NCBI GenBank assembly: GCA_019428905.1
Contig: JAHYJN010000016.1
Span: 1-52,112 of the forward strand
Source: Candidatus Brevefilum sp.
Lineage (GTDB): Bacteria; Chloroflexota; Anaerolineae; Anaerolineales; Anaerolineaceae
Reading direction: 5' to 3'
Length of the DNA stretch: 52,112 nucleotides
Positions within the stretch are counted from its first letter, which is position 1. Each line of letters begins with the position of its first letter. This document shows, piece after piece, positions 17,341 through 30,791 of the stretch. Made by a program: the position numbers and the translations under genes. The notes beneath the pieces are model-generated. The model was not told the origin of the DNA. It saw nothing but the letters and a program-made list of their open reading frames with translations, and searched no databases.

Positions 17341-17967
17341 CTAAGAAAAAGCCAGCCAGTACGCGGCCACGCCAAAAGCCACCGCCACATTCAGCGAAGC
17401 TTTCGACCCGACCATCGGCAGCGCCAGCACCAGATCACACAGCTCGAGCAATCCGGGGTCGACCCCGGCCTGTTCATTGCCTACAACCAGTAATAATGGG
17501 TCTGTTCCAAAACATTGAAGGTCAACGTCAAATATGGGGACGGCCTGCGGCGTCGTTTCCAGCACTAACAGCCTGAAGCCCTCAGCTTGCAGATCTTGCG
17601 CCAATGCACATGCATCCGGGTGAGATGACCAGGGGATGGTCAATTCAGAACCTAACGCCGTTTTCCCTACAGCCATGTTTTCGGTCGGATTGGGTGTGAT
17701 GCCGCCTAAATACAGGTGTGCAGCACCGACTCCGTCCGCCGTGCGGAAAATGGCACCGGTGTTATATGCGCTGCGCAGGTTATCCAGCAATACGCTGATG
17801 CGCCGCTTTGGTTGCAGTTCAGATAAAGTTTGACGGTGCTGGTAAGAAGACCCCACCCGTATCATCGGGGCGCCGCACCGGGGACAATACGCTCCGCGAT
17901 ATAAAGCTGGGTCAATAGGCAGCCGTAGACCGCATTCAGGATGGGTACACTGCCGGATTTCAAACAT
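17341..17967 (-). CDS. TrmH/SpoU-family RNA 2'-O-methyltransferase with N-terminal zinc ribbon
   Basis: A 208-residue SPOUT methyltransferase. The N-terminal 35 residues hold a zinc-ribbon-like C7/C12 and C28/C31 arrangement. The catalytic domain shows motif 1 NLRSAYNTGAIFRTADG, motif 2 LLVVGNEQAGVD and motif 3 LALPMVGSKASLNVAVAFGV, the knot that binds SAM. The family 2'-O-methylates ribose in tRNA or rRNA, but the target here is unknown. The ribosome site GGAAG lies 7 nt before the ATG. The zinc ribbon may help select RNA, which is inference. Confidence 0.88.
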   Translation of the reverse strand: MFEIRQCTHPECGLRLPIDPALYRGAYCPRCGAPMIRVGSSYQHRQTLSELQPKRRISVLLDNLRSAYNTGAIFRTADGVGAAHLYLGGITPNPTENMAVGKTALGSELTIPWSSHPDACALAQDLQAEGFRLLVLETTPQAVPIFDVDLQCFGTDPLLLVVGNEQAGVDPGLLELCDLVLALPMVGSKASLNVAVAFGVAAYWLAFS

Positions 17968-18267
17968 CTAACACTTCCATACCATTCTCAGTCATTTATA
18001 TTTGATATAACAGCTGGTGGTGGGGACCCAAATCCCTCGCCCACTGAGCAGTTACGATTGGATCATGATTTTGGGGTAATTTTATCGCGATTCCCCCGGA
18101 ACTTTGAGACCCACAGCCTGTTGGCCGTTCGTTTGGCGGTTAAAAGCCAAACGCCTGGGTGAGGGGGGCACCCAGACGTTTGACAGTGATAAATATATCA
18201 CAGGGAACTACCAAATGCAAGGTTTGTAACATTAGAATATGGTTAGAGTTTTTATGAAATTAAAAGA
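17968..18267. other. 300-bp intergenic region with hairpins and a palindrome
   Basis: No open frame of note. It holds one AGCAGTTACGATTGG-type motif (18045-18061) shared with other gaps. It also holds a hairpin 18130-18153 (8-bp stem), the terminator described separately, and a perfect GTGATA/TATCAC palindrome with a 4-nt loop (18186-18201). A plus-strand TTGACA at 18180-18185 abuts the palindrome but has no matching -10. Confidence 0.5.
18149..18181 (-). terminator. Intrinsic-type terminator of the roadblock/Y1 gene
   Basis: Read on the minus strand, an arm at 18169-18181 pairs with 18149-18161 (13 bp with one U-G wobble, 7-nt loop rich in C) and is followed by TTTGGCTTTT. It lies about 90 nt after the stop at 18268. 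The distal arm can instead pair with 18130-18137, so two alternative structures exist. Confidence 0.6.
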
Positions 18268-19536
18268 CTAATCAACAAGAGATTCTTGCGTGACCCGGCT
18301 GCGGGAGATATGGGTGACCAGTACCTGGGTAGGAAATTCCCTGTTTTGCGTGTCCACCAAGTAGCCCGGCGACCAAAAATCCTGGGTTGAGTTGCCCGCC
18401 TGCAGATCTGGTAAGGCATTGAAGATGCGTTCTGAAGTCCAGTGCCTGACCACGCCCAACAAATCGCGTATCAGGCACTCAGGGAAATCGAGCAGGGTCC
18501 ACTTGAGATAGTCTGGACGCACCGACAGCGAAGCCAGCTCCCAACCGTAGATTTCGCATAAGGCCGGGAACCACTCACGCAGGTGAAGCGCCAGCTCGCC
18601 GAGCAGGTAATGGTCCTTCAATCGTGGGACCAGGTAGAAGGTGGTATCCATCACCGTTTCTTCCAGGGTCTTAGTGTCTTCATCACAGGAGCCTAGATAG
18701 GGTTCATCAGGAAATGGATCGTGATAAGTAATGGATGGTCGATCTTTAAGGGCGTTTTGGGAGCGTTGGCGCTGATCAGCATCCTGGATGATGCTCACTA
18801 GGTCGTCATCGAGTGGGGACATTTGGTCCCCTAACTGCGCAGTGAGATGGTCCACACGATGGTCAATTTCCTGGTCAACATCAAGTTCAGCCTCAGCTAG
18901 TTCCACTTCCGACGGCAAGAGCGCGTCCAATGGCTGCCAGCGCAGCCCATCCGGCTGTGACTCTTGTTCCTCTCCTGTAAATTTATTTTCAGGGGCTCCT
19001 GGTGGAGCTAACGGTTCCTCAGGCACAATCTCATCCTCAATTTGCCCAGCCATCTTATTTTCAATTTGCCATCCTTCAGGAACCGTTTTGGCGGTTTCAG
19101 GCGGAACGGGCTTTGACGTAGGCTGCCCTGTTAATTGCAAGGATTGTTCCAAACGGTCGTCAGCGCTACCTGTGTTTTCGTCAAAAACCGTGACCAGTCG
19201 CATCAAACCTTCCATTTCCCGCCGCATGTGTTTCAAGGAAATCTCCATCGGGAAGGCCAGGCTTAACAGGTAATCGCCGCTGGGGGTAGTCCTGACACGC
19301 AAACAGTGAAATTGACCGTCTAGCGACAGTACCACTTGGCGATCAAGATCCCCCTGTTCCCATCCCAGCCAATGGCGCTGTACCGCATCAGCAAATTCCT
19401 GAAAGCCTTCAGGGCTCAATCGCCCATATTTTGCAATGATCATATCATCGTGAATTAAGATCATCGCTGTTGCCCTGGCGCGCTTAAGGTACTGCTCAAC
19501 TTCCGGGGAATGAAACCCCTTAGATAGATGGGACAT
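18268..19536 (-). CDS. Roadblock-like domain fused to a degenerate IS200/Y1 transposase-like domain
   Basis: A 422-residue protein. Residues about 5-120 resemble a roadblock/LC7 domain (ATAMILIHDDMIIAKYGRLS, then a strand around DGDYLLSLAFP-type residues and a final helix). Residues about 130-297 are an acidic, low-complexity linker. Residues 298-422 align without large gaps to IS200/IS605 TnpA. The matching parts are a helix LHLREWFPALCEIYG, then ELASLSVRPDYLKWTLLDFP at the HUH strand, a long helix, and DFWSPGYLVDT for the conserved (L/F)WSPGYFVST motif. The catalytic HUH is replaced by Y343-L-K345 and the nucleophilic Tyr position appears to be His409. It is therefore probably a domesticated, non-transposing DNA/RNA-binding module. 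Roadblock domains scaffold GTPases, but none is adjacent. Confidence 0.7.
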   Translation of the reverse strand: MSHLSKGFHSPEVEQYLKRARATAMILIHDDMIIAKYGRLSPEGFQEFADAVQRHWLGWEQGDLDRQVVLSLDGQFHCLRVRTTPSGDYLLSLAFPMEISLKHMRREMEGLMRLVTVFDENTGSADDRLEQSLQLTGQPTSKPVPPETAKTVPEGWQIENKMAGQIEDEIVPEEPLAPPGAPENKFTGEEQESQPDGLRWQPLDALLPSEVELAEAELDVDQEIDHRVDHLTAQLGDQMSPLDDDLVSIIQDADQRQRSQNALKDRPSITYHDPFPDEPYLGSCDEDTKTLEETVMDTTFYLVPRLKDHYLLGELALHLREWFPALCEIYGWELASLSVRPDYLKWTLLDFPECLIRDLLGVVRHWTSERIFNALPDLQAGNSTQDFWSPGYLVDTQNREFPTQVLVTHISRSRVTQESLVD

Positions 19537-25051: not shown

Positions 25052-27631
25052 TTACATCACCCGCAACTGTGACCCCTCGGCGGTCTTTTCCACCTCAATG
25101 CGGGTGGGGAAAGCATCCTTGAGCTCATCCAAATGCGTGATGACCAAGATCTTCTCAAAATCATCCTTCACCAGGTTGATCGCCTCCACCAGGCGCTGAC
25201 GCCCCTGGGTATCCTGGCTGCCAAAACCCTCATCGACGACTAGGGTCTGCAAGCGGGCGCCTGCCCGGCGGGCCAGCACCTGCGACAGCGCCAGCCGGAT
25301 CGAAAAATTAACCCGGAAGGCCTCGCCGCCGGAGAACATTTCATAATCCCGCTCGCCCACATTATCGCTGATGACCATGTCTAGCGTCTCTTTACGATCC
25401 TCACGGCTGGCATCCTTGTACTCTCGCTGGGTGACAAAATTGAACGACATCCGCCCATTACTCAAACGGGAGAGCAAGGTGTTGGTGGTTTCCTCAATTT
25501 CCGGCAGGGCTTGCTCGATCAACAAGGCCGGGATGCCGTCCTTGCCGAAGGCACGCTCGAGCTGTCTCAGATCCGCAATCCCCTGGGTCATCTCCTCCCG
25601 TTCCTCCAGAAGGGCGTCCTTCCTTTCCTCCTGAACAGCCAAAATTCTGACTCGCCCCTCCGCCACGCCGACTTCCTGACGGAGAATATTTTCTTGCTCC
25701 TGGATGTCAAACAGATCAGATTCTGCTTGCAACAGGTCAGGTAAGCCCGCTTCAGAAGCGGCAAGCTTAGCAGCCGCCTCACTAAAAGCAGTGGTTCGAT
25801 TTTCCAACTCTTTCTCTTTTTCAATTTTTTGGGCTTCGAGATCGGCAATTTCCCGCTCAATCGGCGCCAGAGCCGCCCTAGCCTGATGAACTTTCACCCG
25901 GGCTTCTTCTGCCTGACGCCCTTCCTTTTCTGTCTGACGTAATTTCTCGTGGGCATCCAAATCATAACCCAAAGCTTCTAAATCGGCTTTGATCTCTTCC
26001 AACTGCCGACGGGCATCTTGAGCGTAGGTTTCTTCATCTAAAATTTGGGTGATTTCCTTCAAACGCGGCAAGCCCTTTGCGTTCCAAATTTTTTCCTGGT
26101 CTGCTAATCCAATCAGCTTGTTTTTGATTTGATCAACCTTGCGATTAGCTTCTCGCAGTTCACCCTCACTGTTCTTAAGATCTGCCAGTTGAGATCCCAT
26201 TTTCTTAAGCTCAGATTCAAAGTTCTTTACTAAATCGCTGTTGTCACGATAGCGCGCCCGCATGGTCTCGCGTTCTGCAGTTAGTGCTTCGACGAGCTGC
26301 TTACGATCTTGATTGCTGAGTGGTTTTTGGCAAACCGGACATTCGGCTGATTCCGCGCTCGCCAATTGTTCTATCCGCGTGCCTAATTTCAGACCTTCAT
26401 CCTTCAGGCGGGGGTTTTCCGCTTTTGCTTCAGCATAACGAGCCTGTAATTGACGGATTTCCTCATCCAACTGGTCTCGCCGGCTGATTTTTTCTTGCGC
26501 CTTTTCGATCGCTTCCTCTGCCGCTCCCAGTTGTGCCTCAAGACCAGCCCGCGCTTCCAGAGCGCTTTCTAAATCTTGATTTTGTGATTCAAGGCTATGT
26601 CTTTCCTGCTGAAGGCGCGCTGCTTCTGCATGAATCCTTCGTAATGGCTCTTGCCGCAGGGCTTCATGCTGGTGGTATGCTTGAGCCAATTCCTCCATGC
26701 TGCTCAATGCTGCACGGGCATTCTGCCAGGCCTGGTAGGCCGCTTCAATCTGATCCGCTTCTGCCAGAACGGCTAGATGACCCGTTCTTTCCTCTTTCCG
26801 CTGTTTTAAAGTATCTGCAATGCGCTCTAGATCACGCTGTGCGCTTTCAAACTGCAGCCTTAAGGATTCCACCAATTTCCGCTGTTCTTGCAGCAATACA
26901 TGCAGACGTTGCACATTTTCAAGAATTTTCGCTTGAGATTTTCGCTGTTCAGCCAGGTTAGCCAGGCGGGCTTGTAATGCTTCCAAGCGTTCTTTGCGTT
27001 CGGGACCCTCATCCAACTCAACCTGGATTTCGCTCAAACGCCCATCCAGCACCCCCAGGTCCTTTTCCAGGTCACGCCGCCGCAGGTTGGCAGCCTCGCG
27101 GTAGGATTCCCAGATTTCTAGCCCAAGGATATTGCTCAGGATCCGTTTCCGGTCAGCCGGCCGGGCTGTGGCGAACTGGTCTGCCTTGCCCTGCAAAAAG
27201 AAGGAGGCGTTGGTAAAGGTATCAAAATCCATCCGCAGGGTATCTTCGATCTTCTTATCCGTCTCGCGCAAGGTGCGCTCGGTGAGGGGCTTCCAGCGAC
27301 CTTCATCACCATCTCCCGCTATGGACCAGATAAAAAACTCCACTGCAGAGGTCTTGCCGCGTGGGTTGACGCGCTGCACCCGGTAGCGGTTGCCCTCGTA
27401 ATCAAAATCCAGGGTGACCTGGGCTGCTTTCACCTCAGGATGGTTGTTGATCACGGATTCATCCCGCTTGCGCGCCACCCCAAACAGCGCCCAGGTGATG
27501 GCGTCCAACAGGGCGGACTTCCCCGCCCCATTCTCGCCGGAGATGCATGCCAGGCTGAAGCTTGTAAAATCTAATACCACTGGCTGGCGATAAGACAGAA
27601 AACCTTCAATTTTTAATTTAACAGGGATCAT
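25052..27631 (-). CDS. Rad50/SbcC-like SMC-family ATPase
   Basis: An 859-residue SMC-type DNA repair ATPase. Walker A is GENGAGKS (32-39). Two long coiled-coil arms flank the zinc hook CPVC (C431, C434). The signature is MFSGGEAFRVN and Walker B is LVVDEGFGSQ (D800, E801), followed by VITHLDEL. In Rad50/SbcC complexes the coiled coil tethers DNA ends while the ATP heads gate the Mre11/SbcD nuclease. No SbcD gene is next to it. Instead it starts 1 nt after herA, with NurA at the head of the same operon. The coiled-coil half (25.6-26.9 kb) is visibly more AT-rich than the two head regions. Confidence 0.9.
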   Translation of the reverse strand: MIPVKLKIEGFLSYRQPVVLDFTSFSLACISGENGAGKSALLDAITWALFGVARKRDESVINNHPEVKAAQVTLDFDYEGNRYRVQRVNPRGKTSAVEFFIWSIAGDGDEGRWKPLTERTLRETDKKIEDTLRMDFDTFTNASFFLQGKADQFATARPADRKRILSNILGLEIWESYREAANLRRRDLEKDLGVLDGRLSEIQVELDEGPERKERLEALQARLANLAEQRKSQAKILENVQRLHVLLQEQRKLVESLRLQFESAQRDLERIADTLKQRKEERTGHLAVLAEADQIEAAYQAWQNARAALSSMEELAQAYHQHEALRQEPLRRIHAEAARLQQERHSLESQNQDLESALEARAGLEAQLGAAEEAIEKAQEKISRRDQLDEEIRQLQARYAEAKAENPRLKDEGLKLGTRIEQLASAESAECPVCQKPLSNQDRKQLVEALTAERETMRARYRDNSDLVKNFESELKKMGSQLADLKNSEGELREANRKVDQIKNKLIGLADQEKIWNAKGLPRLKEITQILDEETYAQDARRQLEEIKADLEALGYDLDAHEKLRQTEKEGRQAEEARVKVHQARAALAPIEREIADLEAQKIEKEKELENRTTAFSEAAAKLAASEAGLPDLLQAESDLFDIQEQENILRQEVGVAEGRVRILAVQEERKDALLEEREEMTQGIADLRQLERAFGKDGIPALLIEQALPEIEETTNTLLSRLSNGRMSFNFVTQREYKDASREDRKETLDMVISDNVGERDYEMFSGGEAFRVNFSIRLALSQVLARRAGARLQTLVVDEGFGSQDTQGRQRLVEAINLVKDDFEKILVITHLDELKDAFPTRIEVEKTAEGSQLRVM

Positions 27632-29402: not shown

Positions 29403-30791
29403 TTATTGATCGAGCCATGTTTTAATCATAGCATCCATGTGTGTGACGAACCATTCTCTAAATCTCAATTTAGCCTGTTGCAGATCGACATCCACGTCTT
29501 CCATCATCGACCCAATTTGCCTGCCAAACTGGTAATGGAGTGCGGCATAGAGCTTCTCCGGGGTTTGATGCGCCCCGATGCTGCCCAGGTACAGCCTGAG
29601 CACGCCCAGCGTCCGGTTTTGGAAATTGATTGCAACCGTGACTCGCTCTCCCCCAGGGACCATTTGCCAATCATCTGGCAGCCGTAGGTTTTTGTGGATG
29701 CTCTGATATGAGACAAACTCAAACTCATCCCCTAAAGAACCCTTATCGGTGAGAACCTGTGCCAGGGATGCCTGGTATTTATTGAGCAGGTCTTCAGCGC
29801 TTTCCTGCCACGCTTGGATGATCAGATTCGTGTGATCAATCAACGCCTGATCAGGCTGGGTTTCTAAATATGACATGTTTGCTCCTTCTTGAATAGAACC
29901 TTTTCTTTGATTTAAACCGATAATCTCAACTTGCGATAGAGACTTATTGATGATGTCTTTTTGTTTCTCGGCCATAAATTTAATCAAAGGCAGTAATTGA
30001 CCCTCATCAGCAGTTTCCAAGGCATTGATATACAGAGCGCGTTCTTCATCGCGCACCACAAAGGGGAAACTTCCCGCGCGCAGAAAAACAAGCGACGCCA
30101 GTGCCCGTGCTACCCGTCCGTTACCATCCTGAAAGGGATGAATTTGCGTAAAGCGGTGGTGTAAGAAGGCTGCTTCGACTTCAGGATGGATATTCTTCTC
30201 TAAATGACGTGTGTTCATTTCAATCAATCGGTCCATTTCAGCAGGGACATGCTCGGGAGGGCAATATTCATGAATTGAATCATCTTTTTGTAACGGATTG
30301 TTCGGCCATTTTTTCCAATCGCCCTTGATCAGGGTCATCTCGACCAACTTGCCTTCCGGGGTTAGAGCAACGGTTGTGTCTTGGTGGCGTGTAAAGGTTT
30401 GATGCATCTCTCGGATATAAGAAAGGGTCAGTTTGCGACTTTGACTCACAAAATCAAATAACCCTTCGATCACATCGTGCTGATCCTGAAGCATTGCAGC
30501 AACCAGTTCAGGGTCACGATTGGTACTGCTGTGCGAGATCAATTTTGCACTGATACCATGTTTGATTAGGGTTTCAGTCATCCCCTTCGTTAGTGTGTAC
30601 AATCCTTCGATTTTACCAGTTTCAATAGCCCACTCACGGCTGATTTCGCTCATCATTTTTTCTAGCGTGGACTTGGAAATTTCAACACGGACCTCTCCCC
30701 ATTTTTCCACCAGGTGACGGAAAACCGGGTCAGCGTAGGTGAGGAGTTCCTCAGGAATATCTTTGATGGGTTCCCAAAACACTTTTGGCAT
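29403..30791 (-). CDS. Fic/DOC family AMP-transferase, class II (N-terminal inhibitory helix)
   Basis: A 462-residue Fic protein. The catalytic motif HPFQDGNGR (218-226) is complete, including His218. An N-terminal inhibitory helix motif T58-x3-E62-G63 matches the class II [S/T]xxxE[G/N] pattern, so activity is probably autoinhibited. A DUF4172-like N-terminus and an unassigned C-terminal 150 residues flank the core. Fic enzymes usually AMPylate a Ser/Thr/Tyr hydroxyl of a target protein. The GC content is clearly lower than in herA and nurA around it, which suggests later insertion into the repair operon. The ribosome site is GAGGGAAG, 27 nt after the HAS-barrel gene. Confidence 0.92.
   Translation of the reverse strand: MPKVFWEPIKDIPEELLTYADPVFRHLVEKWGEVRVEISKSTLEKMMSEISREWAIETGKIEGLYTLTKGMTETLIKHGISAKLISHSSTNRDPELVAAMLQDQHDVIEGLFDFVSQSRKLTLSYIREMHQTFTRHQDTTVALTPEGKLVEMTLIKGDWKKWPNNPLQKDDSIHEYCPPEHVPAEMDRLIEMNTRHLEKNIHPEVEAAFLHHRFTQIHPFQDGNGRVARALASLVFLRAGSFPFVVRDEERALYINALETADEGQLLPLIKFMAEKQKDIINKSLSQVEIIGLNQRKGSIQEGANMSYLETQPDQALIDHTNLIIQAWQESAEDLLNKYQASLAQVLTDKGSLGDEFEFVSYQSIHKNLRLPDDWQMVPGGERVTVAINFQNRTLGVLRLYLGSIGAHQTPEKLYAALHYQFGRQIGSMMEDVDVDLQQAKLRFREWFVTHMDAMIKTWLDQ

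Follow-up and report, generated by a model that had tools for sequence, protein, structure and literature searches.

A family of Chloroflexota proteins that join receiver and roadblock domains to a dead IS200/IS605 transposase domain, often beside polA, and its reduced member in Candidatus Brevefilum

The best-known relatives of the protein that we describe here are the TnpA transposases of IS200/IS605 elements such as ISDra2 and IS608, which have in common their fold and a WSPGYFV-like motif. Our family shares both, but it lacks the catalytic set of HUH, Tyr, and Gln, it carries TnpA as a C-terminal module, it shows no sign of mobility that we could find, and the charge of its TnpA domain lies below that of three of four class-1 controls. 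RAYTs (TnpA-REP) are similar to our family in that they are domesticated relatives of Y1 transposases and usually occur once per genome (excerpts of PMC8266576 and PMC6006769). However, RAYTs keep both HUH and Y...NP (excerpt of PMC6006769), while our family has neither and has receiver (REC) and roadblock domains in the same chain. Also unlike RAYTs, the family has no REP partner that we could find, as judged from the one hairpin tested, which adjoins the gene under study and has no second copy in that genome. More broadly, the domesticated Y1 transposases that are surveyed in the excerpted part of PMC6006769 keep HUH and Tyr, whereas in our family the enzyme is dead and has been built into a signalling-type protein as one of its domains.

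On the other side of the protein, MglB and other roadblock/LC7 proteins share the roadblock fold, and a receiver protein also acts in the RomR-MglB-MglA system. Unlike that system, our family puts the receiver and the roadblock in one chain with a dead TnpA domain, and unlike the situation for MglB, we found no MglA-sized GTPase with the Pfam model PF00025 in the genome that we started from (which is 92% complete). Most family members have the fold of response regulator receivers and keep the phospho-accepting Asp, but the acidic pair is mostly replaced by Thr-Pro, the protein that we started from has no receiver at all, and Pfam identifies no known DNA-binding output domain in the 22 family members that we compared to it. 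Among the papers that our searches of the open-licence literature listed, none has a title or abstract on a receiver-roadblock-TnpA protein or on a polA-linked domesticated TnpA, and the excerpts of PMC6006769, PMC5371812, and PMC4316618 do not mention such a protein.

We began with a window of 52,112 nucleotides from a Candidatus Brevefilum genome (contig JAHYJN010000016.1). An initial annotation of one of its genes, made from the sequence alone, had proposed that it encodes a roadblock domain fused to a transposase domain that was domesticated and inactivated. The features of this gene and its surroundings are given in Table 1.

Table 1. Features of the window gene and its downstream flank (residue numbers are those of the window protein)
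Feature	Coordinates	Strand	Basis or remark
ORF, 422 aa (roadblock, linker, dead TnpA)	18268..19536	-	Pfam, AlphaFold, Foldseek
Roadblock/LC7-like fold, residues 11-121	19174..19506	-	AlphaFold model and Foldseek
Low-confidence linker, residues 122-296	18649..19173	-	pLDDT
IS200/IS605 TnpA fold, residues 297-421	18274..18648	-	Pfam and Foldseek
HUH position, Y343-L344-K345	18502..18510	-	Residue comparison
FWSPGYL motif	18358..18378	-	Best conserved motif of the family
Catalytic Tyr position, His409	18310..18312	-	Residue comparison
SpoU-type methylase	17341..17967	-	Downstream in 11/12 loci of the genus, in place of polA
16-pair hairpin 3' of the ORF, then CTTTT (possible terminator)	18146..18184	-	z -5.5, 148 bases folded

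Several lines of evidence place a TnpA domain at the C-terminus. Residues 301-408 match Pfam's Y1_Tnp (E 6.1e-7, with a score of 30 bits where the cut-off is 23), and all six matches in a sequence search of the PDB (up to E 10) are named transposase, the best being 2fyx (1.2e-6). An AlphaFold model, which was built on an alignment of 40 rows, has the TnpA fold that had been expected there. When we compared the model to known structures with Foldseek, TnpA of ISDra2 (2xma) ranked first (2.2e-7), and 2fyx aligned with an rmsd of 2.4 Å. The N-terminal roadblock domain is apparent from its fold: the model has roadblock topology, and Foldseek matched this part to MglB (6hjm, 5.5e-4), to 1j3w (6.6e-4), and to a roadblock/LC7 protein from Streptomyces (3kye, 1.3e-3). 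It is not apparent from sequence, as the protein has no match to Pfam's Robl_LC7, and neither do 21 of the 22 family members. Between the two domains, pLDDT is below 50 across most of residues 128-217 and 263-293, and the linker is probably disordered except for two weakly predicted helices (220-235 and 243-261).

The residues that a Y1 transposase needs are absent from the window protein, which has Y-L-K instead of H-U-H, His instead of the catalytic Tyr (both as originally annotated), and Ser instead of Gln. The same is true across the family: none of 137 distinct homologues has both HUH histidines together with the Tyr and the Gln. The first HUH position is Tyr in 115 of these proteins and His in 12, and the second is Gln in 99 and His in 6. 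Both histidines are kept in just one protein (L090, which has H-L-H), and it has Phe at the Tyr position. At that position Tyr (62 proteins) and Phe (61) interchange, with His in 9 more, and the Gln position, four residues past the Tyr, is Thr in 95 and Gln in 5. Class-level members outside the 137 were inspected by eye, and among these one His remains in L275 and in L276. In contrast to the catalytic positions, the F, W, and L of the family's FWAPGYL motif are kept in 96-99% of the 137 proteins, and the four residues between them in 88-92%. As controls, intact class-1 TnpA from related genomes keep PDHVH and YIENQ or PYIRAQ (L281 and L284), and RAYT-like genes keep PDHIH or PDHVH, plus HYNPVKHG where that region was read (L290). 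The window's own genome has two RAYT-like genes with PDHIH or PDHVH (L290 and L307, at G000:C53:11920-12291 and G000:C113:30457-30825), so motif-intact relatives of TnpA coexist there with the dead domain.

We found a homologue in 63 of 101 genomes (the window's genome and 100 related ones), usually at one place per genome. With those from this search and the best 80 of 155 relatives from a scan of genome contigs (160 candidate stretches), we had 140 proteins. We counted 137 distinct proteins, leaving out L089 (no match) and the identical copies L091, L136, and L143; these were picked by similarity, so they are an uneven draw, and 5 of them are cut at the end of a contig. Searching genome contigs with a single sequence found no relatives, whereas an alignment as the query did find them. 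According to family HMMs, 107 of the 137 proteins have receiver, roadblock, and TnpA domains, 16 have roadblock and TnpA, 11 have TnpA only, and 3 have receiver and TnpA. Pfam alone recovers Y1_Tnp in 22 of 22 members, Response_reg in 15, and Robl_LC7 in 1. An AlphaFold model of a full-length member (L091, 514 aa) has a receiver at 19-132, roadblock topology at 179-288, and TnpA at 387-512, with block pLDDT mostly 86-98 in the three domains and low confidence between them. Foldseek matched this model to ISDra2 TnpA (3.9e-10) and to receivers (about 3e-7), with no roadblock among the matches listed, so the roadblock call rests on the model of the window protein.

Members are also present beyond the order: in several other families of the class we found open frames with receiver, roadblock, and TnpA domains, most of 475 to 1256 aa. 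Our first HMMs gave weak TnpA calls for two of these class-level members (0.047 for L263 and 0.0058 for L264) and none for L279, L275, and L276. As the family members themselves went into the later HMMs, the E-values that these give for them are not independent. Profile searches at the level of the class and the phylum were swamped by receiver domains, with few candidates scored per genome, so absence from other classes should not be read into them. In the linker of the 962-aa homologue at L042:9750-12635, a unit like ALTQEEISAMFAQT is repeated several times in tandem; it may resemble the CheY-binding N-terminal motif of FliM. There are also paralogues that lie away from polA. Five of these have frames of about 180-230 aa with a dead TnpA domain and no detectable receiver or roadblock (L064 from G071, L183, L184, L185, and L186), and another, L167, has roadblock and TnpA. 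The neighbours of L064 and L167 have similar starts (...LLWNR...).

The initial annotation suggested MglA-like GTPases and REP-like hairpins as conserved partners. In the window's genome we found no MglA-sized GTPase with PF00025 and no second copy of the hairpin beside the gene. The conserved partner is instead polA, which encodes DNA polymerase I and was the one outstanding partner when we clustered the neighbours of the 137 loci. In 112 loci polA lies downstream of the family gene and in the same orientation; 109 of these were identified by comparing ORFs and 3 by tblastn (L114, L161, and L090, with gaps of about 100, 20, and 130 bp). Of the 109, 96 are within 300 bp, while the rest are up to 3.6 kb away or overlap slightly; the median gap is 70 bp. 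We identified the gene as polA by comparing it to one representative and from matches to Pfam's 5_3_exonuc_N next to the family gene of G071, G084, and G096. Where loci have family labels, 45 of 59 have the link, and these come from 37 genera, which belong to 12 of the order's families. The 25 loci without polA comprise 12 from the window's genus, 2 paralogues, 2 that are less than 430 bp from the end of their contig, and 9 that we cannot explain. A TPR-like gene (by eye) follows in 83 of the 137 loci. In L151 and L152, a RadA/Sms-like gene (also by eye) on the opposite strand adjoins the family gene where polA would be.

Beyond the order, the link to polA is patchy. Of 17 fused loci there (counting L275 and L276), 9 are directly followed by polA (in families f33 and f60) and 8 are not beside it. 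Among 13 loci for receiver-roadblock proteins without TnpA, 3 are beside polA and 10 are not; one of the three, L181, is within the order, and another of the 13, L189, was called by its receiver in one analysis and by its roadblock in another. Conversely, we surveyed 67 polA loci from the class, 29 of which showed at most 1.5 kb of flank. In 6 of the 67, a receiver-roadblock gene lies upstream of polA, directly in five cases and 1.4 kb away in the sixth.

The dead domains appear to have a single origin. In a tree of 63 TnpA domains, one branch (SH-aLRT 99) separates the 53 family domains, including those of the paralogues L064 and L167, from the 10 controls. The controls are 4 intact domains of class 1, 2 further intact ones, and 4 that are RAYT-like; the tree was made with a quick method and few outgroups. 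The dead domains are also under purifying selection in the seven pairs that we tested: over the last 118 codons, dN/dS is 0.03-0.22 in every pair, i.e., synonymous change exceeds amino-acid change. Together, the fold, the residue tallies, the tree, and the selection agree with the original proposal that a transposase domain was domesticated, inactivated, and joined to a roadblock domain. In an unrooted tree of receiver-roadblock proteins, those that lack TnpA fall into a single clade, apart from the stray L181. This fits either the gain of TnpA by an older receiver-roadblock protein that was already linked to polA or the loss of TnpA.

The other parts of the protein have their own peculiarities. 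Of 143 receivers, 136 keep the phospho-Asp and 109 keep the Lys, but most have Thr-Pro in place of the acidic pair that would bind Mg2+ (at position 25, Thr in 85 and Asp in 25; at position 26, Pro in 72), so the input of the receiver may be something other than ordinary phosphorylation. The linkers are rich in Pro and Glu, with a median net charge of -12. The motif [IL]xx[IL][LMIF]xx[IVMLAP]PxPxP occurs in 73 of 123 linkers, while none of 20 shuffles gave it in more than 1 of the 123; it is likely to be a docking site. Clamp-binding motifs are not enriched in these linkers: a loose version is present in 3 of 123 (shuffles gave 1.2 on average and 5 at most) and a strict version in 1 of 123 (shuffles gave 1 at most). 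The net charge of the TnpA domain has a median of +2 in 125 domains from the order (range -8 to +9). It is -7 in the window protein and negative (down to -13) in 18 of 21 others, of which 2 are from the order, as compared to +9, +10, +13, and +4 in the four intact class-1 TnpA of related genomes. As two TnpA of another group have charges of -1 and -2, charge is not a strict marker. With that reserve, we favour protein docking over nucleic-acid binding because the domain is less positive. The initial annotation had left both signalling and nucleic-acid binding open: the receiver and roadblock domains that the parent family carries are in keeping with signalling, while the charge of the TnpA domain of the window protein weakens the case for nucleic-acid binding.

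The window protein is a reduced and relocated derivative of this family of receiver, roadblock, linker, and dead TnpA. All 12 loci of its genus have lost the receiver, and in 8 of the 12 we could detect a roadblock neither in the ORF nor in the rest of the locus. (We considered whether the gene was split in those members and rejected this, as no roadblock match lies elsewhere in those loci.) The genus does not have polA beside the gene in any of the 12 loci, which is why polA is missing from the window. We did not find the family gene in 4 of the 15 other genomes of the genus. As to the window gene's own signals, a terminator is plausible, given the hairpin and the CTTTT that follows it (Table 1), even though a consensus scan did not list that hairpin. 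The same scan, whose counts are near chance, lists no promoter on the minus strand to match the one that had been proposed. We dropped the hairpin as a REP-like target, as it is not repeated in the genome.

How might such a protein work? Receiver, roadblock, and TnpA folds commonly self-associate in known families, and so we infer a non-catalytic adaptor that is probably dimeric. On balance we lean towards one old domestication that gave rise to such an adaptor, which is linked to polA in most relatives and reduced in the window's genus. A class-1 IS200/IS605 TnpA would have been captured once, early in this class of Chloroflexota; it would have lost its HUH-Tyr-Gln set and been fused in one chain with a receiver-roadblock protein, and the fused gene would since then have been inherited mainly vertically. 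The degenerate receiver may take the input, the roadblock and the dead TnpA domain may dock partners, and the long Pro- and Glu-rich linker with its conserved short motif would join the domains. Because the gene precedes polA in most relatives from the order, we suggest that the protein may recruit or tune DNA polymerase I during lagging-strand or repair synthesis, but adjacency to polA by itself is not a function. The window's genus would have lost the receiver and the position beside polA, as well as the roadblock in 8 of its 12 loci. In yeast two-hybrid experiments the TnpA of IS608 binds the beta clamp, and this TnpA also has affinity for fork-like DNA (excerpts of PMC5371812 and PMC6006769). 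The family might have kept such an affinity for the clamp or the fork, as a surface for the replication machinery may outlive catalysis. More speculatively, the protein could be a disarmed lagging-strand ssDNA transposase that became a regulator or recruiter of Pol I, with the receiver and a roadblock dimer controlling its delivery to forks or repair sites; we offer this as a tentative idea that is somewhat doubtful. If true, this would be an example from bacteria in which the tropism of a mobile element for replication forks was turned into an order-wide host protein for the control of replication and repair.

Other explanations keep some of these elements and discard others. The dead domain might still bind ssDNA hairpins or structured RNA without cutting them and act as a regulator, for instance of the polA operon or of forks. 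The TnpA fold is kept, Pro398, Arg399, and Arg458 (in L091 numbering) are invariant across 57 family sequences, and the order-level domains are mildly positive. But the negative charges in the window protein and in most of the 21 other domains contrast with the intact class-1 enzymes, and the hairpin adjoining the window gene is a single copy, so we think this explanation is unlikely. Alternatively, polA might be a mere accident of frozen gene order, with the protein serving a small GTPase or a two-component system as an adaptor in polarity or signalling and having nothing to do with DNA. The roadblock fold does resemble MglB; the MglA system of Myxococcus includes both MglB and the response regulator RomR (excerpt of PMC4316618); many relatives beyond the order stand away from polA; and 6 of the 10 genomes that we tested have matches to the Arf model (PF00025) in frames of 181-239 aa. 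On the other hand, the other 4 genomes have no short GTPase by this model, and these include the window's genome and G131, which carries a fused gene. We also did not recognize, by eye, any GTPase gene among the conserved neighbours of the 137 loci, and the recurrence of the polA link in 12 families of the order and, outside it, in f33, f60, f22, f23, and f41 counts against this explanation. This explanation too seems improbable to us.

Within the window's genus, the gene might just be a decaying relic without any function. The losses of the receiver, of the roadblock, and of the position beside polA would fit this, as would the genomes in which we did not find the gene, and the part of the window protein outside the TnpA domain shows no constraint when compared to L033 (dN 0.93, dS 1.05). 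However, the ORF is open, and over the last 118 codons dN is well below dS for the window protein and L033 (0.19 and 0.85), for L038 and L039 (0.13 and 1.36), and for L035 and L036 (0.19 and 1.06). We therefore consider a relic to be quite unlikely. Finally, a transposase or nuclease that is active with substitute residues would account for the Tyr that 62 of the 137 proteins keep at its own position and for the H-L-H of L090. It would also agree with NCBIfam's model for IS200/IS605 transposases (NF033573), which matches all 57 of the family proteins that we tested (E of 0.001 or better) and which L091 matches above the curated cut-off. Yet the complete set occurs in none of the 137, Tyr and Phe interchange, the Gln is rare, the gene is usually at one place per genome, and it has no relative among viral contigs. 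Nor does any plasmid or phage record cover 80% of the query; the best matches (for phage, among the matches listed) cover the TnpA part only. An active enzyme is thus extremely improbable.

We prefer, then, the non-catalytic adaptor, and it matters beyond this one gene. Several families of a bacterial class have retained a dead TnpA domain, in one order mostly beside polA, and this gives a testable lead on the control of Pol I in Chloroflexota and on how transposase folds become modules of other proteins. As NF033573 matches every member that we tested, the family is easily hidden under the name of transposase, and the model could be a source of wrong names. Because the window's copy is a reduced derivative, species in which the gene is linked to polA are better suited to functional studies than the window's genus is. 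As to the rest of the window, positions 25052-27631 on the minus strand encode an SbcC/Rad50-type ATPase with a zinc hook and Walker B, whose neighbour cluster is found in 8 of the 137 loci, and near it lies a Fic/DOC domain protein of 462 aa (29403-30791).
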